Source of the DNA: a virus
IMG/VR virus record: IMGVR_UViG_3300024985_000009
Coordinates: 1 to 27,456 of that record
Direction: 5' to 3' (one strand)
Length of the DNA: 27,456 nucleotides
The translations under genes and the position numbers were made by a program. The notes below the pieces were generated by a model. The model was not told the origin of the DNA and made no database searches. It saw only the letters and a program-made list of their open reading frames with translations. Positions 3,516 to 27,456 of the stretch are shown piece after piece. Numbering within the stretch: the first letter of the stretch is position 1; every line of letters starts with the position of its first letter.

Positions 3516-4277
3516 ATGGACACCGATACTAAGCCAAAAAGAGGTAGACCCTTTGGCATACCTCAAACATTAGAAACCAGAGAAAAAATATCTGCCAAGA
3601 ATAGACTCAGAAGCAACAGCATATCGCGTGAACTTGATCTGCCAATGAACATACGCAAAGTAGTTGGCAAAAACTCCACGCGTTATGCCGTTAGGATTAA
3701 AAAACGCAATGTAATAGAGGTTCAAGTGGGAACTTATGCGACTTTACAACAAGCAATCGCTGTTCGAGATGAAATCCTAATACAAGAAGGACTAATCGAA
3801 GCCATCAAAGAAGTCAAAAGAAGGGAGCAAGCCGAAAAGGATGCCCATTTAACAGAATCCATGCGCTTATTCAAAGCAGCTAAAGAACAGGAAATGGCTA
3901 AAAAGGCGATCGATAAAAAACAGGCTTATCGAAGCAAGCAAGATATGCACATCAAAGCCCAGAAAGAAAAGAAAGCCACTATTATTACCAAAAAACAAAC
4001 TATCAGAACACCAACCCCAAAATTGCCACCACCAATACCACCACAACCACCTAAATCAGTCATTCAGGAACCCGTTTATACAACTGTAAGAAAAGATGGG
4101 TACTACTTCGTCAATGGGCAATATCTTGCGGTAGTCGGTGGCAAACAAATAATAACTACCAGCGCGGAATCCGCACGCGCTATCTATCAACGTGGCGGTG
4201 AAAAAATAGTGACTGGAAAGAATACGAACACTATCCCCGTGGCCCGTAATTTTGGCTTTCTTAAAAACAGTTTATGA
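3516..4277 (+). CDS. AP2/NUMOD-like DNA-binding protein with coiled-coil and Pro-rich linker
   Basis: A 253-aa protein. Residues 5-15 read KPKRGRPFGIP, an AT-hook-like RGRP core. Residues 20-30 (ETREKISAKN) resemble NUMOD3-type motifs of homing endonucleases. Residues 43-90 (VVGKNSTRYAVRIKKRN then QVGTYATLQQAIAVRDEIL) look like an AP2-type beta-sheet DNA-binding domain. A Lys/Glu/Gln-rich helix (about 95-155), a proline-rich hinge (KLPPPIPPQPP, about 168-178) and a C-terminal domain around VRKDGYYFVNGQYLAVVGGK follow. No nuclease motif (GIY-YIG or HNH) is seen. It starts 3 bases after the PrtN-like gene. A regulator or accessory DNA-binding protein is the best guess. Confidence 0.6.
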   Translation: MDTDTKPKRGRPFGIPQTLETREKISAKNRLRSNSISRELDLPMNIRKVVGKNSTRYAVRIKKRNVIEVQVGTYATLQQAIAVRDEILIQEGLIEAIKEVKRREQAEKDAHLTESMRLFKAAKEQEMAKKAIDKKQAYRSKQDMHIKAQKEKKATIITKKQTIRTPTPKLPPPIPPQPPKSVIQEPVYTTVRKDGYYFVNGQYLAVVGGKQIITTSAESARAIYQRGGEKIVTGKNTNTIPVARNFGFLKNSL

Positions 4278-4540
4278 GCATTACAAAACACAGTAAATTC
4301 GATGTATCGAAACCTGCTAAAAAACCAACACTACAATATCACCATGTGACTATTGAAAAATACAAACCAATACTTTATCCAAAAAACCTAAGCCCAGAAA
4401 AACGCCAACAGCTTTGGCAGAAAATACAAACAGAACAACCAGCACTCGCAGAGATGCTAAAAAATGACCCAATTATTGCTGCATTAAAATCAGAATTTGA
4501 TGCTCAAATAGTGTTTTATGAAGACGAGGTGAGTATATGA
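4274..4540 (+). CDS. phage protein of unknown function (88 aa)
   Basis: An 88-residue protein coupled by ATGA overlaps to both neighbours. The N-terminus is basic (KHSKFDVSKPAKKPT). The rest is helical, with LSPEKRQQLWQKIQTEQPAL and an acidic C-terminus (FYEDEVSI). It has no membrane segment and no recognised family. The tight coupling supports a real gene. Confidence 0.6.
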   Translation: MSITKHSKFDVSKPAKKPTLQYHHVTIEKYKPILYPKNLSPEKRQQLWQKIQTEQPALAEMLKNDPIIAALKSEFDAQIVFYEDEVSI

Positions 4541-4914
4541 ATAAAGAACAGTGGGAAGAATTAAAAATTCTTTACGGTAATTTAGCTTACGTCATGGTGC
4601 AAGTTTATTGTCTGCAAGAATGGGATGATTTTGATGCCAACTATGAGGTTGACCAATTTTTTAGTGACAGAATAGAGCTAGGTAGAAGTGATGAAAGCGA
4701 TTTGAGAATAAAAGAATCAGCCGCGCTGCCTTTTGATAAAAAAGCAGCAGAAAAAGGTGATGTTGTTGAATACCTACACCCAGTAAAAGGATGGAAGATA
4801 TTTCAAGAAATTTATTCTGATGATCCTGAGTCTTGCGATAAGTTTTTTATGACCACAGAACTTAAATTACGCATGCAACACCCACGCCGTGCAGGAGTTT
4901 ATTATGGCGACTAA
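4537..4914 (+). CDS. phage protein of unknown function (125 aa)
   Basis: A 125-residue acidic protein starting at the ATGA overlap with the previous gene. It has two Trp/Tyr-rich helices at the N-terminus (QWEELKILYGNLAYVMVQVY), an acidic middle (EWDDFDANYEVDQFF) and a strand-rich end with VVEYLHPVKGWKIFQEIY. Small acidic early phage proteins are often host-takeover or anti-defence factors, but nothing here shows that. Overlaps the next gene by 11 bases. Confidence 0.6.
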   Translation: MNKEQWEELKILYGNLAYVMVQVYCLQEWDDFDANYEVDQFFSDRIELGRSDESDLRIKESAALPFDKKAAEKGDVVEYLHPVKGWKIFQEIYSDDPESCDKFFMTTELKLRMQHPRRAGVYYGD

Positions 4915-5296
4915 CCTGCGTCCGTTTGAAGTTGATGATTTTGTTGTTTTATCTGATGGACGAATAGGACATGTAACTGGAATTATTAGCGATAAATTTG
5001 AAGTTGTTATCAATGAAAACAACAGAGAATTGATTCATTTTGATTTAGATTGTCATGCGCTGAATGACATAGAGTTGACCATAAAAACCATACGCAAACC
5101 CCGCAAAGGCAATGCAGAATCGAGAGCTATTGTCGCTATGCTTGCATCTGAATATAGACAATATTTAAACAATAAACTGAGAGCGCATTTAAAATTTAAA
5201 GCGGCAATTCCTGAGATAAAAAAGGCTTGTTATAACGATAAAAGTTTTATTTTGTATATGAAAGCAAAAGCAATGCTTAGTAATAATCATGCGTAA
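4904..5296 (+). CDS. phage protein with KOW/SH3-like N-terminus (130 aa)
   Basis: The start is set at ATG 4904 (MATNLRPFEVDDF) because AGGAG at 4893-4897 precedes it by 6 bases; an upstream in-frame start at 4889 has no such site. Residues 7-45 (FEVDDFVVLSDGRIGHVTGI, then DKFEVVINEN) look like a small SH3/KOW-type barrel. The C-terminal half is basic and helical. It is the last gene of the early operon before attP. The function is unknown. Confidence 0.6.
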   Translation: MATNLRPFEVDDFVVLSDGRIGHVTGIISDKFEVVINENNRELIHFDLDCHALNDIELTIKTIRKPRKGNAESRAIVAMLASEYRQYLNNKLRAHLKFKAAIPEIKKACYNDKSFILYMKAKAMLSNNHA

Positions 5297-5398
5297 AACT
5301 GCTTAGTTTGATTTTTAAGCATGATGTTCCCCACCAACTCAAACAACAAAAAAGCCACATTTAGAAAATAAATAATATAACTAATTAATAATAAAGCA
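5297..5398. other. AT-rich non-coding flank of attP
   Basis: A stretch between the early operon and the dusA fragment with no ORF. A weak AT-only hairpin (AAACT 5296-5300 / AGTTT 5305-5309) followed by five T at 5312-5316 could end early transcription, but it is weak. The run 5360-5400 is extremely AT-rich, with repeated TAATAA/ATTATT words, as is common for the bent arm region of an attP. No integrase or IHF site can be assigned by eye. Confidence 0.35.
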
Positions 5399-5524
5399 TT
5401 ATTTATTTTTATCAATCCAATCTAGCATCGGAGCGACGCTAAAACGATGAACCCTTGATTTTGCTTGTGTGTCTTGGTTTTTCAAGGGTTCTGGCGTTGT
5501 TGTGTTGTTTTTATTGTCGGTCAT
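5399..5524 (-). CDS. dusA: phage-borne 5' end of dusA (41 codons) embedded in attP
   Basis: On the - strand, ATG at 5524-5522 opens a 41-residue ORF ending at TAA 5401-5399. Residues 1-25 are a polar extension (begins MTDNKNNTTTPEPLKN). Residues 26-39 read HRFSVAPMLDWIDK, nearly identical to the conserved start of bacterial DusA (RFSVAPMLDWTDRH), which reduces U20/U20a in tRNA. The match stops abruptly at residues 39-41 with a stop codon. This is exactly what a dusA-targeting phage needs: after crossover inside the shared codons, this promoter, start and N-terminus would be joined to the host gene body, keeping dusA functional. On its own it is not an enzyme. Integrases that target the 5' end of dusA are an established group. 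Confidence 0.85.
   Translation of the reverse strand: MTDNKNNTTTPEPLKNQDTQAKSRVHRFSVAPMLDWIDKNK
5411..5449. other. probable attP core within the dusA codons
   Basis: The codons for H-R-F-S-V-A-P-M-L-D-W-I-D occupy 5449 down to 5411 on the - strand, the only stretch homologous to bacterial dusA. Conservation drops on both sides: a phage-specific N-terminal extension above, and N-K-stop below. The crossover should therefore lie within these 39 bp. The adjacent tyrosine recombinase and the presence of phage genes on both sides identify it as attP rather than a prophage boundary. The exact overlap bases cannot be placed without the host attB. Confidence 0.75.
5450..5490. repeat. 9-bp inverted repeat beside the att core
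   Basis: AACCCTTGA at 5450-5458 and TCAAGGGTT at 5482-5490 are perfect inverted repeats separated by 23 bp. They directly abut the dusA-homologous core and fall in the phage-specific N-terminal extension. They may be recombinase or directionality-factor binding sites, or form a hairpin in the dusA message. Confidence 0.5.
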
Positions 5525-5606: not shown

Positions 5607-6632
5607 ATGGCAACGATTACAAAGCGACAACGTAATGATGGGACTTTTGGCTATTCGGCGCGGATTAGAATAAAGCGTGATGGTGTGGTTGTCCACAGTG
5701 AAGTTAAAACGTTTGATCGGCAAGCATTGGCTAAGGCATGGGCAAGCAAGCGGGAATTAGAGCTACAAGAAGTTGAGGCTTGCGGTGCAATGAAATCAGT
5801 GCTGATAAAAACACTGATTGAAAAATACATTACCCAGTTTTCCCATAATTTTGGACGCTCAAAGAATTTTGATATTCGACGGCTGTTGAATTATGACATC
5901 GGCAAAATAGATGCTTATAAGTTACAAGCCAAGGACATTATTGAGCATTGTATTCAGCGTAATAAAGAAGCTAAGCCTCAAACTGTGCATAATGATGTGA
6001 TTTGGTTACGGACGACGTTGAAAACCATGCGTGATGTTGATAATCATAGCTATCGACTAGATGCGTTTGATAGTGCAATGGAAGTATTGCGACGGGAAAA
6101 ATTAGTAGGGAAAGGCGCACAGCGGGAACGCAGACCAACGGTCTACGAATTATGGAAGTTATCGCGTTTCTTTGCAAAAAAGAAGACTTATAGTGTGCCG
6201 ATGCTGCACATTATGTGGTTCGCTGTGTATTCGGCGCGGCGTGATAGCGAGATTTGCAGGCTATTGTGGTCAGATAATAATGCCGATAAACAGACAGGCA
6301 TGGTGCGAGATTTGAAGCACCCAACAGATAAAAAAGGCAATCATAAACGCTTCAAGTATCCACGTTCGGCGTGGAAGATTATCCAAAAACAGCCATGTGT
6401 TGATGAGCGTATTTTTCCCTATAATCCGCGTACTGTGAGTGCTTATTTTCACAATGCCTGCATGATGTTAGAGATTGATGACCTACATTTTCATGATCTG
6501 CGCCACGAAGCAGTTAGTCATTTATTTGAGCAAGGGCTAAGCATTCAGCAAGTGCAGTTGGTAAGTTTACATGAGAATTGGCAAACCTTGAAACGCTACA
6601 CAAATTTAAGGCCCGAAGATTTGGATATTTAA
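5607..6632 (+). CDS. int: tyrosine recombinase / integrase, dusA-targeting type
   Basis: The start is ATG 5607 (MATITKRQRNDGTFGYSARI); the frame is open upstream to a TTG at 5556, but that would read through the operator repeats. The 341-aa product has an N-terminal arm-binding beta domain (1-50), a helical core-binding domain (about 60-165) and a C-terminal catalytic domain. Visible active-site residues are R212 (SARRDSEI), K237 (RDLKHP), H296 and R299 (HDLRH), H322 and nucleophile Y331 (LKRYTNL). The box around H322 reads SLHENW rather than the usual GH pattern. It catalyses phage integration and excision. It sits divergently beside the phage dusA segment, the arrangement known for dusA-inserting prophages. 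Its stop overlaps the end of the convergent late operon by 4 bases. Confidence 0.95.
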   Translation: MATITKRQRNDGTFGYSARIRIKRDGVVVHSEVKTFDRQALAKAWASKRELELQEVEACGAMKSVLIKTLIEKYITQFSHNFGRSKNFDIRRLLNYDIGKIDAYKLQAKDIIEHCIQRNKEAKPQTVHNDVIWLRTTLKTMRDVDNHSYRLDAFDSAMEVLRREKLVGKGAQRERRPTVYELWKLSRFFAKKKTYSVPMLHIMWFAVYSARRDSEICRLLWSDNNADKQTGMVRDLKHPTDKKGNHKRFKYPRSAWKIIQKQPCVDERIFPYNPRTVSAYFHNACMMLEIDDLHFHDLRHEAVSHLFEQGLSIQQVQLVSLHENWQTLKRYTNLRPEDLDI

Positions 6633-9600
6633 AATGGTAAGTGCATTAATGCAATCGGTGAAATGTTGTAATCTATATCGGCATCAATAACTCCTTTTTC
6701 AGTGACTTCATTAGTTTCCAAATTAATAAATAGCGCATTGGTAGGTGCATAAGGATCGAATGTAGCGAGGATTAGCAGTTTGTCAGTGTAAGGTGCATTC
6801 ATCCAGCGTGGACGGTACATAACTGATAATCTGTCAGTTGTTATAATATTATGATCAGAGATAACCAAATCATGTTGATGTTTGGTGCCGTCTATAAATG
6901 TAACAACAATTGATGTCATTACCGTGTTATCGCCTGTTGTTACTGACACAGGCGTATAATATTGATAAATATTCAGCTTAGTCGATATAAACGTCATTTC
7001 TCGTTCTTCAACTGCATTCTCAGGTGGTTTTGGCATTATCCCACCTAGTTTTTCTATTTTAGTAAACCAAAACCCATCAATTGGAATCTCGATAATATCA
7101 ATAGCATCAATTGATTGACGATTATCAGTTGTTGCATATTTTTTATAGCCACAAAACCGATCATAATCCGCAAATATTTGTAGATTTTCCCCAGTAATCC
7201 AAGGAGACTCTTGAGAAGATGGCTCTAAATAAGCAATTTGTACTGTATGTCCGCTATGATCTGTATTAAATTTTACTAACTCAATAATATCTTCACATGG
7301 ATTCCATGCTGAAGCGGGAACACCATTCACAGTTCTGACCGATCTAACACAAATATGTAAACCATCATCTGTAAATCCTGTAAATTCACGCAAATATTCG
7401 GTAACTGTATACGTTTGGTCAGCAAGAGAATCATCCCATCGTGTGATATGATTCCAATTATTACTTTCAAGGCTTAATGCTAATCTTGATAATTCTGCAA
7501 TTATTAATCCGTTTTTCCCCTGCTTTTCTACTGAAAAGGTGGCGACATAAGGAATAGTATTATTGTCTCTATTTGTTCTATAGATTACGACAAGATTATA
7601 TTTATTACCCTCTGTACCTATTTTTAAACACATTCCAGCAACTGACATTGGGGTTGTGTCTTCGGCTAAAAAATAAGGCAATAATCCAAACCTACCGCCG
7701 ATATAAACTACATATTCTTTTCGACAATTATTATGTCCTTTATAAATTTGTTTTCCCGTTAAAGATTCGTATTCTAATTTATCAGGATGATTATCTTCAT
7801 CAAAATATGACCAACTAACAGCCACAAATTGGTCTTTAATATTTTTTGCTTTTTCAATTTCAGTACGCTTTAAATCTATTTCATACTGTTTTTGAGCAAT
7901 ATCAACTGGATCAGTTAAGTCGATTAACTCAATAATCAATTGTTCTAATTGTTGTTGCAGTAAGATAATATTTGGCTTTAAATTGCCCCGCCATGATCCG
8001 CCCTCACTGTGCGGATAAGGTTTACTACCAATAGGTAATTCAATTTCAGCGATTCGTCGAGCATTACCACCCGCATAAATCCCTGATACTGTTGTTTTAC
8101 TAACCGCTGAATCATAAATAATCCGCTGTTTTGATGTTTGAAATGGTGGCTGAAATTTATCGGTATATTGCCCAGCATCGCCATTCACCTTCATCATCGT
8201 TAGATGGATTCCGCATGGCTTTGGGTTTGATTCAAAGCCAACAACGGTTATTTCTTTGGGTCTGGTATCAGCAAACTTTTTGACTGTTTCAAATCGGGTA
8301 TGCTCTTTGATAATGCGCTCATCGAGCATAATTAGCTGTGAGTCAACATCCGTTTTGTTTTGCTCAATATCAAATTTGCTATCTTCTAATTCGCGTAATT
8401 TATTGGTTTCTTCAACGCTTTTTTCCAGCGTGTATTTGAGCTGTTGCTTCGATAGCGTATTGACTGATACCAGCGGAATTAACTGATTTTGTTTTTCGTT
8501 TAGCAAGGTTCGCGCTGTTTTCAATTGGCTCTCTAAATCGGTTAGCGTGGCAGTCGATTCAGCTAATAATTGCCGCTTATCAATGAGCGATTGTGCCAGC
8601 GCATTAAGTTCATTATTCGCCGTGGTAATTTCAGCTTCTTTGTCGGTAATCGCAACGGGGTCTGTTAGCTGTGCTAATTCATCTTGGAGACTGAGAATTT
8701 GTGCAGTTTTATCCGTAATCTGCTTTTCAAGGCTGGTGACTTCATTAATTAATGTATCGTTATCCTGCTTTTCGGTGCTGATTTGCTGATTTAATGAAGT
8801 CACCTGATCATTTAGCGTATCGACCTCATTTTGCAAATCAGTGATACCGCCCGCGTCATTTTCAGTTTTTATCGTGTCCGCTAACAGCTTGGCGTAATCA
8901 TCCAATTCTTTGATAAATGCCTTTTGTATGACGCTTTTTGCCACAATAGCATCAATTTTCTTTTGCAAATCGGCACTTTTCTTAAGCCAATCAGCTTTTT
9001 TTGCTTCAAAAACAGCAAGAATATCTTTGTGAACGTTTTTGCGTGGGTATTCCAGTACAACACGATCATCAACTTGAAAAGCTAGGGCATCACAGGATAA
9101 ATAACGAACTGGGACATTTTTTAAATGTAGCTCTCTCGTAGTTAATTTCTGAGCAGTATGAGGGATAATTTGTGTATAGTTTTCGTCTACGGTGACATCA
9201 CAACGACCATTATCGGCAATCGCGGTGATTGTACCTTTGCGGTAACGTGGATTATAGCGTTCCATGCCAGCGGCGACGCTCCACGCGTACCACCACGCAT
9301 TAGGTGACAATGTAAAAGCAGGGGCAAGACGACCATCGCGTATGCCGTTATACACGTTCTCTGGCGTTTCGTTGATATAGGCAGGCACTAAAACAAAGCG
9401 ATTGCTAGTCGTTGGCTCTCTAAAGTTATACCAATCCAGCACCCCAACATCGCTATCTTTCTGCAATTCCGTGTTGTAATCGGCACACCATAGTTCTTTG
9501 ATTACCGATGGTTTAACTTCTTTTAGTTTTGCCTTTTCATCAAGCAGATTTTCTCGTTCAATTTTTGCTTTTGCTAATGCGTCAACAGCTTTGTCATATT

Positions 9601-16862: not shown

Positions 16863-17843
16863 TTAAACGACGTTAGTCGCTGGCTTGAATGGAGAAATGG
16901 TGCATTTGGCAGTGATGTTATCGGCGGCTGGCATTGTCCGTGTCACACCTAAAATACCTTGACATAAAATATATTCAGCGGTGTATTTATCTGGATAAAA
17001 CTTAAACCAGATATTTTTGCCATTTAACCCAACGATTGCATCACTCACTGCATTTTTTAAGTAGGCAGTAAAACCACCTTGTGTCAGTGATTTAGTAGAG
17101 TTACCAACAAGACCACCATAAATGACAGTGGAGCTGGATGAGTAACTTTCTTCGGGCGGTACAAAATCTGTGACGTTAGCCATAATTGCAAAAATTGGTT
17201 CAGCATAACTTGCATAAACTTTTTTCGGTACAACACCTGTGTGAATGGCAGGTAATGCTGAATTAAAGATAACCTCACCTGTTGCATCGCTTTGTTCAAA
17301 GATTGGATAGTCATAGCGTTCTTGACTAAAACCGACAACTTGGGTGATTTCAGCTTGTGTTACTTTTCCAGCGGTAATTGACGTTAAACGCACTTGCCCA
17401 ATTTCAATGGAGCCAACTGGGATTAATGGGGGACCGCCCGCCGCCGCGCGTGTTTCTGAAAATGCAGTGGCTGCTGTTCCAGCCACAACAGCAATTGCAC
17501 CCGCGCTGGTAATCGTAATTGAATTGATGATGTGGGTATTCGTTGAAGCACCGCGTGTTACTGTTTTATCAGTAGCAGCAATCACCGTTGTTTTTACGCC
17601 CATTAAATAACAAGTGAGCGCGGCAACGTCTACCATGTCATTGGTATTGCTAATCGCAGGTGTAATCGCACCGCCTGTGGATAAACCATTGGGGCGAACG
17701 ACGGGGGCGAAACCCTGCATTCCTGAGAATTGGTCAGCGAGTGATGCAAAGGTTTTATGATCGCCATTGTCAGTGAGTTCTGACATAGCATAAACAGTTT
17801 GACCTGCTTCGTATTGGAGTTGAGCATCTTGAGCGGATGGCAT
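16863..17843 (-). CDS. major tail (tube) protein
   Basis: A 326-aa beta-rich protein starting MPSAQDAQLQYEAGQTVYAM. It sits between the tail terminator and the tail assembly chaperone, the fixed location of the tail tube gene in siphophages. It is Ala/Thr/Val/Gly-rich with no catalytic motif. The segment around residues 115-165 (TSAGAIAVVAGTAATAF then GGPPLIPVGSIEIGQVRL) may be an inserted surface loop or domain. AAGGA lies 9 bases before the ATG. An intrinsic terminator sits just upstream. The possibility that it is the capsid protein is disfavoured by gene order. Confidence 0.75.
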   Translation of the reverse strand: MPSAQDAQLQYEAGQTVYAMSELTDNGDHKTFASLADQFSGMQGFAPVVRPNGLSTGGAITPAISNTNDMVDVAALTCYLMGVKTTVIAATDKTVTRGASTNTHIINSITITSAGAIAVVAGTAATAFSETRAAAGGPPLIPVGSIEIGQVRLTSITAGKVTQAEITQVVGFSQERYDYPIFEQSDATGEVIFNSALPAIHTGVVPKKVYASYAEPIFAIMANVTDFVPPEESYSSSSTVIYGGLVGNSTKSLTQGGFTAYLKNAVSDAIVGLNGKNIWFKFYPDKYTAEYILCQGILGVTRTMPAADNITAKCTISPFKPATNVV

Positions 17844-17918: not shown

Positions 17919-18353
17919 TTACGGCGCAGCGGTAAACGGATCACCTTTTACGGTCATATAAGTAATATTAAAAGTAGCGAGAATAGCTGTGTACTCACTA
18001 CCATCAGCGGGATAGTTGGGTGCGATAGATTGCAGTGTCATGTTCGTTGCTAAATTGCTGAACGTTTGACTGCCAGTGAATAGCGTTTTAATGATTTCTC
18101 CCATCACGGTGTTAGCGGTAATGCTTGGGTTTTCTATTCCTGTTCTAAATACACATTCTAAGATTATCGGAAACTGCATTTTCTGAATGCTATAACCAGA
18201 TTCCAATGCCTGATCTTCACCGTCCCAAAGCGTGATAAAACGTTCATTAGTTTCATTAATTGACCGTAACACGCGCTCAATCGGCAAGTTTGATAATGGC
18301 GCAGCGCGGGCTTGAAAGGCTTGGATGATTCTTTCGCGGATAGTATCGGTCAT
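17919..18353 (-). CDS. tail terminator-like (gpU-type) protein
   Basis: A 144-aa alpha/beta protein beginning MTDTIRERIIQAFQARAAPL, then LPIERVLRSINETNERFITL, followed by beta strands (FPIILECVFRT; LATFNITYMTVKGDPF). Size, order of elements and position (after GpZ-like, before the tube) match siphophage tail terminators, which cap the tube and join tail to head. One base separates it from the GpZ-like gene. A 75-base gap holding a terminator follows it. Confidence 0.68.
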   Translation of the reverse strand: MTDTIRERIIQAFQARAAPLSNLPIERVLRSINETNERFITLWDGEDQALESGYSIQKMQFPIILECVFRTGIENPSITANTVMGEIIKTLFTGSQTFSNLATNMTLQSIAPNYPADGSEYTAILATFNITYMTVKGDPFTAAP

Positions 18354-18354
18354 A

Positions 18355-18975
18355 TTAAGGTGGTGGCGTTTGTTGGGAAAGAAGATAAGTGATTTGTCGG
18401 TTTAATTCAGCCATTAAACGATCAGCGGCAGCGGTTTCAACTCGATTAGATAAGCCTGGTTGATTTAAATAAACCTGCGTAACCGCTGTACCGACTAATT
18501 CAACAATTTTATTTTTGCCTGTGCTAGTTCTTATGGGTCTTCCTGCGGCATCTATTGCATTTTTAAAAATGCCAACATGACCACTTCTAAGATTTGGCAC
18601 GAAAAAATGTCTAAATTTAGTCACACCGCCGTTTTTATAAATCTTGGAACTAACGCCTTTTTTTAGCTTATTAAATGAATATTGTGCTAACGGTGTCCAA
18701 TAACTGGGACGATTCCGATAATAACCTGCATTGACGGTTATTTTTCCTGTCACACCCAATGCAGTATCTATTTCAAGATTTGAGCTAATACAGTTTTTGA
18801 TATAAGCACTTTTTAACGTTGTGGCCGCGCTTATTTCTTTTGCGACATTTGTTTTAACCCCTGTTACTGTTCGTGATACTGATCGTCTTAAGGCTATTTT
18901 TGACTGCGTACCGACAGAAGCTAACAAACGTTTTATGTCATCAATTTGCGCTTGATTAAAGGTAATTTGTGCCAT
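18355..18975 (-). CDS. GpZ-like minor tail / tail completion protein
   Basis: A 206-aa basic protein resembling prophage minor tail protein Z. It has an N-terminal helix, then ALRRSVSRTVTGVKTNVAKE, and IYKNGGVTKFRHFFVPNLRS in the central part. A C-terminal helix has AADRLMAELNRQITYLL. GpZ proteins complete the tail top and help connect it to the head. The ATG shares one base with the stop of the connector gene upstream. Confidence 0.75.
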   Translation of the reverse strand: MAQITFNQAQIDDIKRLLASVGTQSKIALRRSVSRTVTGVKTNVAKEISAATTLKSAYIKNCISSNLEIDTALGVTGKITVNAGYYRNRPSYWTPLAQYSFNKLKKGVSSKIYKNGGVTKFRHFFVPNLRSGHVGIFKNAIDAAGRPIRTSTGKNKIVELVGTAVTQVYLNQPGLSNRVETAAADRLMAELNRQITYLLSQQTPPP

Positions 18976-19271
18976 TATCTGACTGCCAATCGTACAAAAA
19001 CACCATCATCGTAAATAATAGAATCGACCGTAAATGTCGTGGTTTTTTCTTTTATGGTATCGCCGCGTTGTGGCTGAAATGGAATATCTGCTTTTATAAG
19101 CTCTATTTCTGTACGAAATTCGATAACAAAGCCATCATTACCTGCCCGCTCAACATTGCGTTCTACATCGGCTTTTATTGCGAAAGATTGCTGTCTACGC
19201 GTATAAATAACGTCATCGCCTAAGGCTTTCATTAAAGCAGCACTTGGAAATTTATCTGAAAAACTTACCAT
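18975..19271 (-). CDS. head-tail connector / joining protein
   Basis: A 98-aa beta-rich protein (opens MVSFSDKFPSAALMKALGDD; later DIPFQPQRGDTIKEKTTTFT and VDSIIYDDGVFVRLAVR). This matches the small joining proteins (FII-like fold) encoded between head and GpZ/tail terminator genes. It would sit at the neck of the virion. It starts 2 bases after the fibre-tail adaptor gene's stop. Confidence 0.7.
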   Translation of the reverse strand: MVSFSDKFPSAALMKALGDDVIYTRRQQSFAIKADVERNVERAGNDGFVIEFRTEIELIKADIPFQPQRGDTIKEKTTTFTVDSIIYDDGVFVRLAVR

Positions 19272-19273
19272 AA

Positions 19274-19591
19274 TTATCTCTCGGCTATTTCTAAATAAAA
19301 CGTTCTATCATCAACGCGGGTACCACCACCAGCAACTGTAGCAGTCATGCGAATAGTAAATGAAGCTGTTTCGCCCACTGTACCACCGCTTATTATCACA
19401 GTGACGACACCGTTCAAGTGTGATGATGAATCAATAACAATGCTGCCTGTGCTTATCACTAAATGACTTGAGTAAGTAGCATCTATGCCAGAAAGCCATA
19501 CGCTCCAATCTATTGGGTAATCAAGTATTGCATTTGGGTCCTTGATACAAATTGGCTTTATTACATCAAATTCGTTCCAGAAATGACTCAT
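19274..19591 (-). CDS. fibre-tail adaptor-like phage protein (105 aa)
   Basis: A 105-aa protein with the family-like segment KDPNAILDYPIDWSVWLSG, followed by an Ig-like beta sandwich (VVTVIISGGTVGETASFTIR) and a C-terminal DRTFYLEIAE. Proteins with DP-x3-LDY-x-xDW-x-xWL motifs are known in prophages as fibre-tail adaptor proteins. The start forms an ATGA overlap with the repeat-fibre gene, which fits a direct partnership: fibre made first, adaptor next. Confidence 0.65.
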   Translation of the reverse strand: MSHFWNEFDVIKPICIKDPNAILDYPIDWSVWLSGIDATYSSHLVISTGSIVIDSSSHLNGVVTVIISGGTVGETASFTIRMTATVAGGGTRVDDRTFYLEIAER

Positions 19592-22248
19592 ATCACATAG
19601 CCTCTTTGTTCTGCTTCCACAATGTATCCTCTTTGTTCTGCTTTCACGATGTATCCTCTTTGTTCTGCTTCAATGGCATAGTATCTTGGATGCGACGCGT
19701 CCTGTATTTGTGATCTGATAACAATTTTTGCGGTTTGTTGCTGTGAGCTGTTACCGACGGCATTGATTTTAACCAAGCCTGTTGCATAACCACTTTGAGC
19801 CTGTGAACTGCCACAAATCACAGGGATTTGTTCAGAAGTTACTGTACTGACTGCACTTGAATTCTGAAATTGAGCCGAATTACCGCTGGCATTAACAATA
19901 ATGCTAGATGACAATCCTATTGCTTTGGCGTTTTGCGATTGTTCAGATTTTGCTACGCCATTAACCGTGGCGTAAGAAACAGAACCAACCGTGTTTGCAC
20001 TTTGTACTTGAGCTGAATTACCAACAGCATTAACAATGATGCCAGACGATAGCCCTATTGCTTTGGCGTTTTGCGATTGTTCAGATTTTGCGACCCCATT
20101 AACTGTGATGGAAGAAACAGAACCTACTGCCTTAGCATTCTGAGATTGCCAAGAAATGCCATTGACACCCGATAAGGTAATCGTACCAACTGCATAAGCT
20201 GATTGTGCTTGTACCGAATTCCCTATGCCGCTGACACTGGCAAACGCAACCGATGCTATCGCTTTGGTTGACTGATTTTGCTCTGATTTACCAACACCGT
20301 TTACACTGGCAAATGCAACTGATGATACCGCTTTGCTTGACTGGCTTTGTTCGGTTTTACCAATACCGTTTACACTGGCAAATGCAACCGATGATACCGC
20401 TTTGCTTGACTGACTTTGTTCGGTTTTACCAATCCCGCTTACACTGGCAAATACAACCGATGATACCGCTTTGTTTGACTGCCCTTGTTCTGACTTAACA
20501 ATGCCATTTATAGCTAGTGTGACAATTGTTGGAACGGCTTGTGTGCTTTGTTGCTGTAAGCTGTTACCTACGCCGTTGTTATTAACCAAGCCTGTTGCAT
20601 AAGCATTTTGGGCTTGTAAACTATTCCCTACTCCATTACTTCCTGTTGCCGATACTGTACCGATTGCACCTGCATTTTGAATCTGAGTGCTTTGTCCAAT
20701 AGCATTAACTGATGCAAATGATAATGAACAGACGGCAACGGAATTTTGAGCTTGAGTGCTATTACCTATGCCATTAACAGTCGCAAAACTAACCGTATTA
20801 ACGGCTTGTGCAGTTTGATTTTGTTCACTTTTACCGATGCCAGAAACGCTTAATGTGGCTATCGAGCCGATTGCACTAGCATTCTGATTTTGATTGCTTC
20901 CTGCAATACCAGTAACTGTAAAATTAGTTACTGTTGCTATTGCGCTAGAAGATTGCCGCTGTTCTACCTTGCCTATACCTGAAACTGTTAATGCAGCAAC
21001 GGAACTAACTGCACCTGCCAGTTGTTTTTGTTCTGAACTCGCTATGCCGTTTACAGTAATCGATGAAACTGAACCAACTGCATTGGCTGATTGATATTGA
21101 TTACTTGTCCCAGTAGAAAAAATAGTTGTTGATAAAGTAATTAAATCTTTATCAAAAATACCTCTACTTTGAACAATATCGCTATCAAACCAGCCTTTAC
21201 CATTGAAATCGTAAGTATGGCTTCTGTATTTATTCGTTATTGCAATCTTTTTTATTGAGCCGATTGCACTAGCATTCTGATTTTGACTGCTTCCTGCAAT
21301 ACCAGTAACTGTAAGATTAGTTACTGTTGCTATTGCGCTAGAAGATTGCCGCTGTTCTCCCTTCCCGATACCTGAAACTGTTAATGCCGCGACTGAACTA
21401 ACCGCACCTACCAGTTGTTTTTGTTCTGAACTCGCTATGCCGTTTACAGTAATAGATGAAACTGAACCAACTGCACTAGCTGATTGACATTGATTGCTGG
21501 CACCAATACCAAAAATATTACTATCTGTTGATGGTAAAGAAGGGATAAAAGTCTGGTATGGCTCAAAAACCTGCCACGGATTATCTGAGATTGATTTAAT
21601 CTCAAGTGGCGTTAATACCCGCTTCCAAATTAAAACCAGATCAAGTTCACTAAAGCAATAGTCGGTATTACCTTCACCACCACCTATTTTTAAAGTAACA
21701 GGGGCAGTCCATGAGCCAACGCTTGACGATGTTGCTGGAGATGCTTGAGCCACCCCATCAATATACGCCGTGTACACAGATAAGTTGTTAGTAACAACAA
21801 CGGTTTGACTTTTTCCAGTTGCTATAGATCCAGATGGCGATATAGCCGCCAAGCCACCGCCAGTAGCATAAACAGATACTCTAGGTGTTGCCGAGGCAGC
21901 TGGTAAATATAAACAAAAAGCCGAGTTAAAGGCTAACGCAGACTGCCAGTTAGCGGCATTGCCTTTATAATTCTGGATAACCAAAATTGTGAAAGGACTT
22001 GTTGATGCAGGTAAATTTGATTTCGTGAACGAATATGTACCGCTAGCAAACAGCTTACCATGAAGCCCACAGGTAGAAGCTGGCGTTGCCGCTGTACCAG
22101 TAAGCGTACCGACTTCGCCATTCACGGCATTGCGAACAATACCGTTTTGCATGTTTACCGCAGCAACAAGATCGCGGGCAAGCCCAGTTGATTGAACTGC
22201 TACATAGGCTTTAGGCTGTATGCGTCGCTTGTTCTCTGTTGGGAACAT
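19588..22248 (-). CDS. LamG plus 25-repeat fibre-like structural protein
   Basis: An 886-aa protein in three parts. Residues about 20-230 form a LamG/concanavalin-like domain (TILVIQNYKGNAANWQSALA; LSVYTAYIDGVAQA; FSELDLVLIWKRVLTPLEIK), probably sugar-binding. Residues 247-845 are about 25 copies of a 23-residue unit of the form G-I-G-x-S-x-Q-x-Q-x-x-x-A-V-x-S-V-x-x-x-x-V-N. The copies are interrupted once by a unique insert with YDFNGKGWFDSDIVQSRGIF. Residues 855-886 hold three copies of AEQRGYIV. It is probably a fibrous virion surface protein. Q/S/N/A/V-rich composition suggests a beta-solenoid or fibre. It is followed by the adaptor-like gene with an ATGA overlap. Confidence 0.75.
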   Translation of the reverse strand: MFPTENKRRIQPKAYVAVQSTGLARDLVAAVNMQNGIVRNAVNGEVGTLTGTAATPASTCGLHGKLFASGTYSFTKSNLPASTSPFTILVIQNYKGNAANWQSALAFNSAFCLYLPAASATPRVSVYATGGGLAAISPSGSIATGKSQTVVVTNNLSVYTAYIDGVAQASPATSSSVGSWTAPVTLKIGGGEGNTDYCFSELDLVLIWKRVLTPLEIKSISDNPWQVFEPYQTFIPSLPSTDSNIFGIGASNQCQSASAVGSVSSITVNGIASSEQKQLVGAVSSVAALTVSGIGKGEQRQSSSAIATVTNLTVTGIAGSSQNQNASAIGSIKKIAITNKYRSHTYDFNGKGWFDSDIVQSRGIFDKDLITLSTTIFSTGTSNQYQSANAVGSVSSITVNGIASSEQKQLAGAVSSVAALTVSGIGKVEQRQSSSAIATVTNFTVTGIAGSNQNQNASAIGSIATLSVSGIGKSEQNQTAQAVNTVSFATVNGIGNSTQAQNSVAVCSLSFASVNAIGQSTQIQNAGAIGTVSATGSNGVGNSLQAQNAYATGLVNNNGVGNSLQQQSTQAVPTIVTLAINGIVKSEQGQSNKAVSSVVFASVSGIGKTEQSQSSKAVSSVAFASVNGIGKTEQSQSSKAVSSVAFASVNGVGKSEQNQSTKAIASVAFASVSGIGNSVQAQSAYAVGTITLSGVNGISWQSQNAKAVGSVSSITVNGVAKSEQSQNAKAIGLSSGIIVNAVGNSAQVQSANTVGSVSYATVNGVAKSEQSQNAKAIGLSSSIIVNASGNSAQFQNSSAVSTVTSEQIPVICGSSQAQSGYATGLVKINAVGNSSQQQTAKIVIRSQIQDASHPRYYAIEAEQRGYIVKAEQRGYIVEAEQRGYVI
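19591..19671 (-). repeat. three 24-27-bp repeats at the end of the fibre gene
   Basis: Three near-perfect copies of the sequence coding for AEQRGYIV (with one joining residue, 27 bp period) end the fibre-like gene. Similar short aromatic/charged repeats close other phage structural proteins. The differences between copies are silent or conservative. Confidence 0.75.
19714..21510 (-). repeat. about 25 tandem 69-bp coding repeats
   Basis: The repeats encode the 23-residue units of the fibre-like protein. Units are near-identical at 20253-20460 (GIGKTEQSQSSKAVSSV twice in a row). A higher-order block of four units appears twice, separated by a unique insert near 21118-21250. A two-unit block is also doubled near 19880-20100. 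This shows recent expansion by unequal recombination or slippage in multiples of 69 bp. Confidence 0.85.
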
Positions 22249-22253
22249 GGCGA

Positions 22254-22769
22254 TTAAGCGTTAGTGTAAATGATAGGTCTATAAGCAACGACACAACCAG
22301 TACCTAATGCCGCGCCGCAATTGTTGCGAATTGCAATACTAAACGCATCGGGTAACGCGCCTTCGACAACTTGACTTAGCTTAAACCATTTTTGGATACG
22401 TTGGCTGGTGATAACGTACGGTACAGCGATAGGTCCATACATACTGTTTGGATCAGCCATCGAAGCTGTACCCTCTGAACCAGTCGGTAGCGTAGTTGTG
22501 CCAAAGTTTCCACCACAAATCCACGTTGTACCGCCGTCCGTTGTCATCCAAGGGATAATGTAAACATAAACCGCTTGGTCATTTGCTGGTGCAGTCGCAG
22601 CGGTTGATAAATCAATCGTAATCTCATAGTCAACAGCCAGTGTTGCTAAATTACTTACTCTAGCAGATTGCCATCCAGCAAACGGTGTCGATGTGTCAAT
22701 CGCTAAAGACTGTAAATTGGTCACAGTTAAAGCCGTGTATGTACCATACGCTTGATTTATCGTTGTCAT
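22254..22769 (-). CDS. phage structural protein of unknown role (171 aa)
   Basis: The start is ATG 22769 (MTTINQAYGTYTALTVTNLQ), which shares one base with the preceding stop; an upstream start at 22784 lies inside that gene. The 171-aa beta-rich protein ends with an RNNCGAALGTGCVVAYRPII strand pattern. Proteins opening TTINQAYGT are familiar in prophages just before LamG fibre genes. They are probably virion proteins, but their place is not established. Followed 5 bases later by the repeat-fibre gene. Confidence 0.65.
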   Translation of the reverse strand: MTTINQAYGTYTALTVTNLQSLAIDTSTPFAGWQSARVSNLATLAVDYEITIDLSTAATAPANDQAVYVYIIPWMTTDGGTTWICGGNFGTTTLPTGSEGTASMADPNSMYGPIAVPYVITSQRIQKWFKLSQVVEGALPDAFSIAIRNNCGAALGTGCVVAYRPIIYTNA

Positions 22770-23335
22770 TATAAGCCGCCCCAAACATCAGATACTTCTT
22801 GCTGGTCAATATTGCCTTGAATCGTGTAAATAACAGCCGATACCGTGCCAGTTTGCACCGCTGGATTAGCAAACATCAATTCCAGTCGTGTGGATTGGCG
22901 AGTACACGCAGTTAGTACATTGACACCAGAAACACCACCCGCACTAACCAATGCGCCATTGGCACCTGACGGCAAAGCGATTACTGAATCGCGCAAACCT
23001 TTTCTAATGCCAGCCTTTGAAGCGTCTATTGTAGAACGTCCCATTAAAATATTTTGCTGGTTCATTTGCTTAATATTAATTACGGCTGCTCGATTAGTAA
23101 AAATTACCGTGCTATCTGGGGGGTCTACTGGCGTAAAAGCAGTGTAATCAATGGAATCTGAAATTGCGGTGGTCGATGTTTCAGTATTCCAACCTAACGA
23201 AACCTGTTTAGCGTTGTAATAAGCGGCGATAGACTGCCAGTCTTCGGCAATAATAAACGTTTCAAGCGGTTGACCTGCTTGAGATAACGCCGCCATATCT
23301 GCTCTTAGTGTTGCCCTTTGTGTACTATTTAACAT
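22769..23335 (-). CDS. phage protein of unknown role, structural cluster (188 aa)
   Basis: A 188-aa protein opening MLNSTQRATLRADMAALSQA, with AEDWQSIAAYYNAKQVS, and a helical middle (MNQQNILMGRSTIDASKAGI then RKGLRDSVIAL). It ends IQGNIDQQEVSDVWGGL. The layout matches a widespread prophage protein found with the 134-aa and 171-aa neighbours. Known copies are annotated only as hypothetical. AAGGAG lies just before the ATG, one of the strongest ribosome-binding sites in the late operon. Confidence 0.65.
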   Translation of the reverse strand: MLNSTQRATLRADMAALSQAGQPLETFIIAEDWQSIAAYYNAKQVSLGWNTETSTTAISDSIDYTAFTPVDPPDSTVIFTNRAAVINIKQMNQQNILMGRSTIDASKAGIRKGLRDSVIALPSGANGALVSAGGVSGVNVLTACTRQSTRLELMFANPAVQTGTVSAVIYTIQGNIDQQEVSDVWGGL

Positions 23336-23350
23336 GGCGAACTCCTTAAA

Positions 23351-23755
23351 TTAAGCGTTTCCGCCAGTCAATGTGAAAGTATTGACTGTGACGGCTTGCG
23401 ATACGGCAATGCTATTATTATCCAGCGTCATATCGCCGCCACCACCAGTTGCGGTAACAGTACCTTGAATATGACAGGTTGTCCCTGAGCTGTCTTTTAT
23501 ACGGAAATGTGCAGCTGTACCTGCTGCTGCGCCTGTTCCAGACCAAGTCCCTAATTTAGTTTTAGTCCCTCCACTAGCTGCATTCATCCAGTCACTAGGA
23601 AGTGTAATTTCACATAATAGCGTGCCATTATCAGCTGACGAAGGGAATGTAGGAACTAATCCTGATCTGATTTGTAACTTAGCTGCCGCACCCGCAGTAG
23701 ATTCAACTGCATCCAAACGGGCATTAATAACAGCTTGTGAGTATTGCATAGTCAT
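23351..23755 (-). CDS. phage structural protein of unknown role (134 aa)
   Basis: A 134-aa protein opening MTMQYSQAVINARLDAVEST, with Gly/Ala/Thr-rich beta strands and the motif LRIRSG-like LQIRSGLVPTFPSS, typical of a family of small prophage virion proteins encoded near the capsid region. AGGA lies 7 bases before the ATG at 23755, which supports this start over the ATG two codons later. It directly follows the portal gene (9-base gap), where capsid genes would be expected, but it is too short and of the wrong composition to be a major capsid protein. Confidence 0.65.
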   Translation of the reverse strand: MTMQYSQAVINARLDAVESTAGAAAKLQIRSGLVPTFPSSADNGTLLCEITLPSDWMNAASGGTKTKLGTWSGTGAAAGTAAHFRIKDSSGTTCHIQGTVTATGGGGDMTLDNNSIAVSQAVTVNTFTLTGGNA

Positions 23756-23764
23756 GGTTGTATC

Positions 23765-25516
23765 CTATGATTGATTGTCTTTGATATTTGCCCCAGTCAC
23801 TTGACCTTTACTATCGCGGATTAATTCGATAAGACCAGACGATGCTACAGGGGGTTGAATGGTTTGTTGTTCTTTGGTAGTGATATTTGCCCCTGTCACT
23901 TGACCGTTGCTATCACGGATTAATTCGATAACCTTAGTCGATGCGACGGGAGCATGAATCGGTTGTTGTTCTGGTGTAGTTACATTCACTACAGGGGCTT
24001 CTACTGTAATCTGTGGAGCTTCTACGGTAATTTGTGGAGCAGGTTGTTGTTTTAGGTTTTGTAAAGCAGTATCAATACTACCTAATCTGTTTTCTATGCT
24101 GGTTATAGCTGTTGAACTTGGTTGTTCAACTGGAGGAGTAACTGGCAAATCAATACCCGTATTGACGGCTCGAACAGGTAATGGGTTGTTTCCTACACCT
24201 ATCTGAGTAGCGATTCTATTGCCATAAATATCACCTTCTGCATCAATTTCATCCTCTATCGCGCTAACCGTATCAGGTTCGACATCATTGCCTAAAATCT
24301 GCTTGGCAATACGTTTCTTAAGGGCTTTATCAAACTCATTGCCCATCTTAAGATTAATTGCGTCAAGAGCTGTTGCCAGCGTTTGCGCCATATCGGACAA
24401 ATTAAAATCATTGTTATAGGCAATATAACCCTCAGGCTTTTCCCCCATCAGATCATGAACCAAGCTTAATATTTCTTTTTCAGCCGTTTCACATTGTTCT
24501 GCCATCGTACGCAATGAAGAGTTGGCTTCTTGAAAATGAAATGACAATGCCACTCCAGACTGTTGTACACCACCGACAAATTCAAGATTTGCAATCCGAT
24601 AAATATCCTGCACCGTTTCTGCAATCTGTTCCATATACAGCTTTACAGGATCAGCAGGCGGTGCGATAAACTTAGGGTCACCGCCACCAGCAGGATTAAA
24701 GGTCAGTGCATTTTCAGTGCTGATCGTTAAATCTTTCAGCCGTTCACGTTCATTATCATTAGCGACGGGTAAGGCAAGAATGGCGAAGGTTTGCGCCCTA
24801 AACAGCTCGCGCAATTCAGAACGCAGGTTATACAAATCCCAGTTTAACTGTGCAAGATCATAAAAAAACGAATCTGAACGGCTTGCATACGGGTCTAAAG
24901 GTGGTGCAGCATGAAGCTTAACCACAGGAACGCGTCCCAATTTATAAGTACCGCTAGCATCGCCTTTACCATCTAGTACACTGCTTACCGACCACCCATC
25001 ACGGGTAAACGTGCGATAGCGCATCACTTGCGTCGTGCCAGTTGTCACATATTCAGAAAATGTCAGCTTAACCCATTCGCCACGATCATCTTTTTCTTCA
25101 TAAACCAATTGAGAAGGCAAACGAACTGATAAATACGGCATTTTTTCATCGGCTTTTGAGCGTGCTTTTTCAGTTGATTTATCGACAATGACATATACCG
25201 TACCTAAGATCATTGCCAGACGTTGATAGGTAAGTAACAAGGCATCCAAGTGTGACCCCATACCATTAGCATTCGTTATAAATGCAGTATAAGTATCGCT
25301 TAAGCCAGTACGCTGAGGTGATTGTTTCCACAAATAACCGACAAATACATCAGTAATCTTGCGACAAAAGTTAGGATAAACAGCCAACTCTTTACGCTTG
25401 GTAAACTTGGTATCCAGCTCTCTAGGGTGAGCGACTAAATAGCTGCCCGATGCAAAACCGCCTTTTCCGCTATACGCATCCAGCAAGAACTGGTCACTTG
25501 TTTTTGATATTGTCAT
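23765..25516 (-). CDS. portal protein (DUF4055-like)
   Basis: The start is ATG 25516, forming ATGA with the terminase stop; an in-frame GTG at 25522 is possible. The 583-aa protein has a portal-like middle: YPNFCRKITDVFVGYLWKQS (about 47-66), PYLSVRLPSQLVYEEKDDRG, LAQLNWDLYNLRSELRELFR (about 230) and IAETVQDIYRIANLEFVGGV with SGVALSFHFQEANSSL (about 310-345). Portals form the ring through which DNA enters the head. Position right after the large terminase supports the call. The C-terminal 80 residues are an atypical repeated tail: ITVEAP repeats then two 33-residue copies ending RDS-[NK]-GQVTGANI. Confidence 0.8.
   Translation of the reverse strand: MTISKTSDQFLLDAYSGKGGFASGSYLVAHPRELDTKFTKRKELAVYPNFCRKITDVFVGYLWKQSPQRTGLSDTYTAFITNANGMGSHLDALLLTYQRLAMILGTVYVIVDKSTEKARSKADEKMPYLSVRLPSQLVYEEKDDRGEWVKLTFSEYVTTGTTQVMRYRTFTRDGWSVSSVLDGKGDASGTYKLGRVPVVKLHAAPPLDPYASRSDSFFYDLAQLNWDLYNLRSELRELFRAQTFAILALPVANDNERERLKDLTISTENALTFNPAGGGDPKFIAPPADPVKLYMEQIAETVQDIYRIANLEFVGGVQQSGVALSFHFQEANSSLRTMAEQCETAEKEILSLVHDLMGEKPEGYIAYNNDFNLSDMAQTLATALDAINLKMGNEFDKALKKRIAKQILGNDVEPDTVSAIEDEIDAEGDIYGNRIATQIGVGNNPLPVRAVNTGIDLPVTPPVEQPSSTAITSIENRLGSIDTALQNLKQQPAPQITVEAPQITVEAPVVNVTTPEQQPIHAPVASTKVIELIRDSNGQVTGANITTKEQQTIQPPVASSGLIELIRDSKGQVTGANIKDNQS
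23780..23977 (-). repeat. two 99-bp tandem repeats at the portal C-terminus
   Basis: Positions 23879-23977 and 23780-23878 (read on the - strand) encode two 33-residue copies with the shared parts EQQ, PVAS and IELIRDS-GQVTGANI. The DNA copies are clearly similar but already diverged. The duplication lengthens the exposed portal tail. Confidence 0.75.
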
Positions 25517-26883
25517 AACCACTTCAATCTAATAGGTTGATAAGAATCAATCACCTGCCCGCCAGACGCAGCATGAACAGCTAAAGCTAATGCCCAGAAC
25601 CTGTCACTATGACCGTCTTTTGTCCGCTCAGCAGTAAAGCGAATATTTCCTGCTGCTGTTGTTGTTTTGGTAATGGCGCGTAAATCGGCACGCACCTTAG
25701 GATTAAAAGGAATGCGTAGTTTTCTGTCCTCAAACTGCCCACGCAACGCATAAGCCATCGACTCCTTTACTGAATTGCTAAAAGTTACGCACTCAACTTT
25801 AGAACCGAATCTGTCACTGGCATCATCGCCCCAGCCGATACCCAAACCTGTATAGTCCAGACAGACCCGCTGAATAAAGTCCAGAATCGGATAGAACACC
25901 TTTTCCTGATCACTCTTTTTCATATTTTGTAATTCAATCACCTGGCGCGTATAAAGCACATCGCCCAGCTTTTCCAGTACCCATATAACGGTTAAATCGC
26001 TTTTGCGCCCTATATCAATACCAACATAGAGAGGTCCTTTAGCCCACTTTAAATCCTCAAACAGATATTCCCATGATTCACTACTGCCATACTCACAGGA
26101 TGCAATCAGGTCATATTCCAAGAAAGCAGTGTCATCATCAGCAGGATTACACATGTATTCCTGTTGAAAGGACTCTTCATCGGCACATCCAGCCCGAATA
26201 AAATCGAAATAAGCCGCCTCATCCATCGTTTGAATATCATCATCAATAGGCAAGGCTTGCTGTAACTTATATAAAAACCCCTGATCTAATGCGTCCTGTA
26301 AAGTAATACGGTGCAAACTGATTTTTTTCGGATTACCGTTTTCGCGGATTTCTCGAATCAACTGATTAAAGAAATTGTGGCTACCACGGTGTGTACTGAT
26401 AAGCTCCATAGAGCCGCCCCAAGTGATGCCTGGGTAAGCAATTGACCACAACTTACGAGGGTCAGGATGTAAGGCGAACTCATCAAGAATACGCCCACCG
26501 CGCTTACCAGCCTGCGCATCTGGATTACTGGACATTGAATGAATACGCCGTCCACTGGCGAATTCCAACACATACGCAGTGATTCGCTTCTTGTCATCAA
26601 TCACAAGCTCGCCTAAATCCTTGGCAGCCATACTAAGCACTTTTGCCCACATCTTACAGTCTTCAATGAATAAGCGGGCTTGCAGATCATCACGACTCGA
26701 TACCCATTGATCGTGTCTTGCGCCTGCTTTAGCGGTTCGTTCATCGGCTTTATAAGCAGTTGCCCAACTAATGCCGATTTGCCGTGACTTTTCCATCAGC
26801 TTCAAGCGGGAATCATCTTTAATCCATCGCTGTTGACCCGACAAAAACAAACCTTCTGGCGGTATGACTTTCGCGTTACCCAT
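25513..26883 (-). CDS. terminase large subunit (Mu gp28-like)
   Basis: A 456-aa packaging motor. The N-terminal ATPase has a Walker-A-like KSRQIGIS at 32-39, Walker B RILDEF with D134/E135, and the coupling segment ELISTHRGS at 160-168. The C-terminal RNase H-like nuclease starts at YVGIDIGRKSDLTV with metal-binding D290; a later acidic pair near GWGDDASDRF is plausible. Length and motifs match the Mu gp28 type. It pumps and cuts phage DNA at the portal. Overlaps the small subunit by one base and the portal by ATGA. Confidence 0.92.
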   Translation of the reverse strand: MGNAKVIPPEGLFLSGQQRWIKDDSRLKLMEKSRQIGISWATAYKADERTAKAGARHDQWVSSRDDLQARLFIEDCKMWAKVLSMAAKDLGELVIDDKKRITAYVLEFASGRRIHSMSSNPDAQAGKRGGRILDEFALHPDPRKLWSIAYPGITWGGSMELISTHRGSHNFFNQLIREIRENGNPKKISLHRITLQDALDQGFLYKLQQALPIDDDIQTMDEAAYFDFIRAGCADEESFQQEYMCNPADDDTAFLEYDLIASCEYGSSESWEYLFEDLKWAKGPLYVGIDIGRKSDLTVIWVLEKLGDVLYTRQVIELQNMKKSDQEKVFYPILDFIQRVCLDYTGLGIGWGDDASDRFGSKVECVTFSNSVKESMAYALRGQFEDRKLRIPFNPKVRADLRAITKTTTAAGNIRFTAERTKDGHSDRFWALALAVHAASGGQVIDSYQPIRLKWL

Positions 26884-27428
26884 TACGCGCTAAACCCCAA
26901 CACTTCGGTACGAATACGATTAATTGTCTCTTCGCTGACACCTTCGGCTTTAGCTGTTTTGACCATTGCTGCCATTGCCTGTTGTCGTTCCTGATCTCTA
27001 ATCTCCAGCTCCCATTTCTTCTGATTGACAGAAGCCCGCGACAGATTCAATACTGAACCTGTTGCCTGTTTTAACAGCTTGATACGTTCTATCGGATCAG
27101 TATCTTCATCAAGTTCCTGCAATGACACCATTGCGTTAAACATCTCGGACTGTACCAAAGAAATAACAGCTGCCGTGCGTATACCTGCATCATCTGGGGC
27201 TGCTTCAGCAATCAAACGCGCTCCTTCAGTCGCATCTTTAACCTGTTGCAATCGCCGCTTTAAATTTTTGCCATGCCTCGCCACCGTAGAACGTGATATT
27301 TCCAATCCTTGCTCAGATAACCATGCAACCAAGCCATCATAGCCAGCGAAATTACGTCGGGTTATTTCCTGATCTAGCAAGGTACGCTGCTCGGGGGTTA
27401 AATTATCAAGTGCAGAAGGTGAGGGCAT
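26883..27428 (-). CDS. terminase small subunit (DUF3486, Mu gp27-like)
   Basis: A 181-aa helical protein. Residues 8-65 (NLTPEQRTLLDQEITRRNFA, then GYDGLVAWLSEQGLEISRST and VARHGKNLKRRL) form the DNA-binding helix-turn-helix typical of the DUF3486 family, encoded directly before Mu gp28-like terminases. A central helical region and a C-terminal helix with a QERQQAMAAM segment probably mediate oligomerisation. It recognises the packaging site. It is the first late gene in the window; the promoter should lie upstream beyond 27456. Confidence 0.88.
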   Translation of the reverse strand: MPSPSALDNLTPEQRTLLDQEITRRNFAGYDGLVAWLSEQGLEISRSTVARHGKNLKRRLQQVKDATEGARLIAEAAPDDAGIRTAAVISLVQSEMFNAMVSLQELDEDTDPIERIKLLKQATGSVLNLSRASVNQKKWELEIRDQERQQAMAAMVKTAKAEGVSEETINRIRTEVLGFSA

Positions 27429-27456
27429 GACTATTATTTTTTAAGCGTGATAGGGG
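27429..27456 (-). other. upstream edge of the terminase operon
   Basis: Only 28 bases precede the small terminase ATG. They read, on the - strand, as an AT-rich leader containing AAAAAATAATAG with no clear ribosome-binding site. It is too short to judge whether a promoter or another gene lies just outside. Confidence 0.25.

Follow-up and report, generated by a model that had tools for sequence, protein, structure and literature searches.

How can a contig carry terminase, portal, and tail genes of a tailed phage and no capsid gene between portal and connector? This is the question raised by the locus analyzed here. The window, the whole stretch of DNA that was analyzed, is one entire IMG/VR record of 27,456 bases, and anything outside the window is therefore outside the contig. 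Its contig class in IMG/VR is "linear," which often means a fragment. The late operon lies on the minus strand and runs TerS, TerL, portal, p134, p188, p176, p886, a 105-aa gene, the connector, and the tail genes, as seen in Table 1. Below, X denotes the Mu-like lineage of the right part (TerS-TerL-portal-p134-p188), and Y denotes the lineage of the left part (the C-terminal half of p886, Gp77, connector, tail tube, tape measure, and integrase). The ORF positions are those given in an earlier sequence-only reading, with the 134-aa ORF starting 9 bases after the portal; p176 is 176 aa long from a TTG start and 171 aa if read from an internal ATG. Our overall verdict is an ordinary one: two phages of known kinds were probably joined into a chimera during assembly, the chief rival explanation being a natural recombinant that is defective.

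Table 1. Coordinates of the late-operon features in the 27,456-base window, with the matches on which each assignment is based.
Feature	Position	Strand	Matches and remarks
Terminase small subunit, Mu gp27-like, X-type part	26883..27428	-	PF11985 5e-41; 100% in L002/L003, 88% aa in L004/L005
Terminase large subunit, X-type part	25513..26883	-	PF17289/PF03237; 94% aa in L004/L005
Portal, DUF4055/phrog_145-like	23765..25522	-	phrog_145 3e-52; blastn
p134, 134 aa, cassette gene	23351..23755	-	phrog_3758 "virion structural protein"; tblastn
p188, 188 aa, cassette gene	22769..23335	-	L002 and L003 both end within p188
p176, cassette gene	22254..22784	-	Near-identical copy in L066
p886, 886 aa, fibre	19588..22248	-	Lectin-like LamG domain
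p886, N-terminal LamG (lectin-like) part	21530..22248	-	PF13385 2e-11; common to the X-type fibre of L066
p886, C-terminal repeat part	19588..21529	-	Not shared with X; followed by Gp77, as in Y fibres (L012 order)
Gp77 fibre-tail adaptor, 105 aa, Y-type part	19274..19591	-	PF23148 8.5e-16; precedes the head-tail joining gene in L012 too
Head-tail joining protein, 98 aa, Y-type part	18975..19271	-	PF25138 and PF05354, both barely over cutoff; L012 31%
Neck/tail completion protein, 206 aa, Y-type part	18355..18975	-	phrog_27 3e-13; L012 33%
Tail terminator, Y-type part	17919..18353	-	phrog_4204; L012 53%
Major tail (tube) protein by position, Y-type part	16863..17843	-	phrog_30644; PS3, MW202621, L012, others
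Putative X-to-Y switch zone (likeliest)	22423..22991	-	From the L002/L003 stop through the first 223 bases identical to L066

Absence of the capsid module

The sequence-only reading had claimed that no capsid, protease, scaffold, or head morphogenesis gene lies between portal and connector, and a scan of the ORFs with Pfam and PHROGs confirmed it: no capsid, protease, scaffold, or MuF domain was found in the portal-to-connector ORFs or in the other ORFs scanned. The same libraries do recognize the major capsid protein in the relatives tested and, therefore, the absence is not a failure of detection. Judged from the predicted proteins, the interval where the capsid module is expected is a receptor-binding (fibre) cassette made up of p134, p188, p176, p886, and Gp77.

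A survey of the tube gene covered 59 loci with a window-type tube, 47 of which have at least 3.5 kb upstream. The capsid seed matched upstream of the tube in 36 of the 47. Inspection of loci with no seed match showed capsids of other PHROG families in L013, L019, L057, L059, L060, and L146, and a weak capsid match in L056. L061 and L148 carry the L060 capsid protein and L149 the L057 one, as judged by the starts of the sequences; L018 was left out of the inspection. X-type portals with enough same-strand DNA downstream lead to capsid genes (L008 included), and L007 ends after MuF. Among the checked tube and portal relatives with enough flank, the window was the only case found without a capsid gene, and no conserved capsid-less gene set was present in more than one genome.

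The packaging side belongs to a Mu-like lineage

Two contigs from other samples, L002 (IMG/VR 3300004184_000055) and L003, are 100% identical to window 22,991–27,456 (4466 bases), and both stop exactly at 22,991. L003 consists of the window's X segment and 58 bases at the other end, i.e., nearly the entire X part. In L002, the region upstream of TerS, which lies outside the window, contains GemA (PF06252) and Mor (PF08765). The further 3.6 kb that L002 provides past the right end of the window has no capsid gene and holds regulatory and lysis genes only (GemA, an antirepressor-like gene, Mor, small genes, and a lysin). The small terminase of the window is of the Mu gp27 type, as in Mu-like phages. 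The MuF, scaffold, and capsid genes that follow the portal in such phages are missing from the window, present in L006 and L066, and partly present in the shorter L004 and L005. In place of the DDE transposase (MuA) and MuB of Mu-like phages, the window bears a tyrosine integrase; in L006, a putative MuB-like ORF was recognized by eye.

L004–L006 share TerS-TerL-portal or the portal with the window at 75–82% DNA identity, up to 24,210. They run straight on to MuF, with scaffold and major capsid following where the contig is long enough (L005 has MuF and scaffold). The 143-aa C-terminal extension of the window's portal (23,765–24,209) is missing in these close relatives, the homology stopping at 24,210, and holds a repeated segment whose DNA copies are about 80% identical and 99 bases apart.

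A search with the L006 capsid led to L066 (IMG/VR 3300024895_000030). The first 1116 bases of this contig match window 22,645–21,530 (p176 and the LamG domain of p886) at 97.3%, with identical runs of 223, 155, and 135 bases. After this cassette L066 continues with the fibre, MuF, scaffold (phrog_206), major capsid (phrog_212, PF20911), and a Mu-like tail. This gene order, following directly on the p176-LamG match, indicates that X keeps its capsid directly after the cassette. Taken together, L002, L066, and L067 (IMG/VR 3300004179_000020) have TerS, TerL, portal, p134, p188, p176, and LamG in common with the window, at 100% (L002) to 97% (L066) DNA identity. Unlike the window, the X contigs have MuF, scaffold, a GP7-family capsid, and a different, Mu-like tail after the fibre. 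Between window 21,532–22,422 and L066:224–1114, the SNPs are mostly at third codon positions and are clustered between the long identical runs; on sequence comparison, this clustering suggests past recombination between copies of the cassette.

The tail side belongs to a second lineage

For the genes of the tube, connector, chaperone, and tape measure, matches were found in Marinobacter phage PS3 (MF959999) and in a prophage of Methylobacter marinus A45 (entered as both L012 and L145), and MW202621 is matched by the tube. The window has the homologous connector, tube, chaperone, and tape-measure genes in the same order as PS3-type phages, but unlike these relatives it has no capsid gene from portal to connector. 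No other IMG/VR contig had a tube above about 67% identity to that of the window.

The M. marinus prophage reads portal, S49 protease, a decoration-like gene, capsid (Phage_cap_E), lysis-like genes, fibres, Gp77, head-tail joining, neck, terminator, and tube, and the capsid thus precedes the fibre cassette in the Y lineage. Its order from fibre and Gp77 through head-tail joining, neck, terminator, tube, and chaperone to the tape measure is that of the window (tube 62%, terminator 53%). It differs in the portal-protease-capsid-lysis block before the fibre, in its other fibres, and in its GC content of 54%. PS3 resembles the window in its homologous connector, tube, and tape measure and in its plus-strand integrase, which is convergent with the late operon; in the window, too, the tyrosine integrase is convergent with the late operon and lies at the contig end opposite the packaging genes. 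In contrast to the window, PS3 has an unrelated packaging module, with annotated scaffold and major capsid genes between the portal and the head-tail joining gene. MW202621 and a Candidatus Competibacter prophage (L146) share with the window fibre-like genes right after the portal and a homologous tube (and, in L146, Gp77), but have MuF, protease or scaffold, and capsid genes between the fibre cassette and the connector. A plain deletion between Gp77 and the head-tail joining gene was considered and rejected: L146 has capsid genes at this place, but L012 also runs from Gp77 directly to the head-tail joining gene.

Proteins of the cassette

The sequence-only reading had offered a very divergent capsid protein among the small ORFs as one explanation. 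p188 and p176 do belong to no database family, as found in profile searches, and this would suit such a reading; single-sequence AlphaFold2 models, with pLDDT values of 32 and 35, were uninformative. However, p134, p188, and p176 are small for an HK97 fold, all lie within a cassette that ends in a lectin-domain fibre, and p176 is found beside a clear, bona fide major capsid gene in L066. Relatives of p134 (phrog_3758), found by tblastn in phages Seuss and Pan4 and in Microcystis phages, have fibre or late genes around them; in Seuss and Pan4 these are the fibre genes. With profile searches empty and this genomic context against it, the suggestion that p134, p188, or p176 is a capsid protein is extremely improbable and was dropped. 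A 326-aa protein was also rejected as the capsid, given that a separate capsid gene coexists with it in relatives and that it is positioned between the terminator and the chaperone and tape measure.

A search of 237 genomes, taken as the family of M. marinus A45 and run without a positive control, did not find p176. The C-terminus of p886 had no match in other IMG/VR contigs, and the window's DUF2303 gene had none in IMG/VR. The C-terminal 640 residues of p886 (19,588–21,529) are degenerate tandem repeats, with DNA copies 78–94% alike. Collapse of these internal repeats is possible as a cause of the missing module, but is unneeded since L066 already gives the X context.

Probable joining of two phages within the cassette

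The homology to X, as represented by L066, ends sharply at 21,530, and beyond this point fibre repeats, Gp77, and connector follow in Y order. Tetranucleotide similarity passes from the Y to the X pattern over the interval of about 19–21.5 kb, and GC shifts in the same zone; the shift is modest, and a natural mosaic would give one too. The ORFs across the join are all open and in frame, as they would also be in a natural mosaic. Both gene orders are observed in relatives, the cassette is observed on the X side, two contigs end at 22,991, and the best relatives switch along with the composition. Two parts with different best relatives thus meet at shared sequence where sister contigs break.

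We consider it probable that the contig is an assembly chimera of two co-occurring phages joined in a shared receptor-binding cassette and not a capsid-less virus. The two phages would co-occur, probably in related methanotroph hosts, and the samples may stem from lake-sediment methanotroph microcosms. In support, the genome of M. marinus A45 holds a prophage of each type. Phage X would carry GemA, Mor, lysin, TerS, TerL, portal, p134, p188, p176, the lectin-domain fibre, MuF, scaffold, capsid, and a Mu-like tail. Phage Y, an integrase-bearing siphophage of the PS3 and M. marinus type, would carry portal, protease, capsid, fibre cassette, Gp77, head-tail joining, neck, terminator, tube, tape measure, and integrase. 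A near-identical p188-p176-LamG stretch would be common to both, Y presumably having its own copy. The assembler may have entered this stretch from the portal side of X and left it on the tail side of Y. Because the X capsid lies after the cassette and the Y capsid before it, a join inside the cassette would skip both. A single joining event would thereby account for the missing capsid, for Mu-like regulators at one end with an integrase at the other, and for the ends of the sister contigs. The X part is practically one contig of a sister assembly (L003) with breaks at both ends, which suggests that one segment of the assembly graph was added onto a contig of Y. Chimeras are known to arise where co-existing viruses have highly similar regions, but the prior rate is low and counts against this explanation: chimeras made up <5% of contigs ≥10 kb in simulated viromes (PMC5610896). 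Also counting against it, a Y-type copy of the cassette next to a capsid was not found, the p886 C-terminus and a tube above about 67% identity were found in no other IMG/VR contig, and the L066 homology ends sharply at a domain boundary, as natural swapping of fibres would give.

Other possible explanations

Another possible explanation is that the join is real, i.e., that an X-type and a Y-type element (phage or prophage) underwent homologous recombination at the cassette, which left X packaging genes with Y tails and deleted both capsid modules. What resulted would be either a defective prophage or a deletion product that persists only briefly. The near-identical shared cassette and the in-frame join fit this explanation, as does the M. 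marinus A45 genome, which contains both an X-type and a Y-type prophage. The position of the fibre cassette also varies among relatives: L146 and MW202621 have it between portal and MuF, L012 has it after the capsid, and L031 has it before TerL. However, such a recombinant makes no particle and yet would have to reach an abundance that allows assembly, two sister contigs break off right at the join and do not cross it, and the join was not seen in any relative. We therefore regard a natural recombinant as unlikely, though it keeps the defective element of the sequence-only reading alive as a rival, by way of recombination.

It is considerably more doubtful that this is a functional phage whose capsid module sits elsewhere in its genome, past the contig ends. 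The "linear" class would agree with this, and so would certain tail relatives with a rearranged head module (L013 and L057 have the portal on one strand and capsid and tail on the other). It is opposed by the capsid-free extension in L002, by the nearest lineages on both sides, which keep the capsid beside the cassette, and by the combination of Mu-type regulators and a tyrosine integrase at opposite ends, which does not fit one normal genome. The idea of a capsid located elsewhere stands insofar as the X capsid is directly after the same cassette (L066 and L067) and the Y capsid directly before it (L012). It fails as a rearrangement, the module being probably missing through the joining of two lineages inside the cassette rather than through relocation. 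Also very improbable is a real, maintained mosaic of Mu-like terminase and portal with Y-type tails, its capsid gene lying elsewhere or in another phage resident in the same methanotroph. Hardly credible is a satellite or defective element with its own terminase, portal, and tails that borrows the capsid of a helper. Nothing speaks for it except the absence itself, no satellite-type genes were recognized in the scanned ORFs, and the packaging part matches, at 100% across 4466 bases, Mu-like contigs whose next segment has its own capsid genes.

Implications and variable sites

A mobile receptor-binding cassette that two unrelated phages apparently have in common, and that lies before the capsid genes in one and after them in the other, could produce a contig that mimics a capsid-less phage. 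Joins of this kind deserve a check whenever viral contigs are mined for capsid-less elements or satellites. Were the join real, it would be an example of recombination at a fibre cassette that cleanly deletes a capsid module.

The portal-MuF interval was found to be a variable cargo site (L095:6504–8035, L007:9134–10,873, L146:1586–5089, and window 19,274–23,755). The cargo consists of DNA methyltransferase genes (L095 and L007), zinc-ribbon-like ORFs, or an entire fibre cassette ending in Gp77. Also seen was a head module that is split and divergent, with a window-related portal opposite the tail strand, in the tail-tube relatives L013, L017, and L057 and in NrS-1 (L010). In L013, the split head module occupies 4047–5495 and 6323–7483, and a phrog_283 capsid is likewise opposite the portal in L013 and L057.
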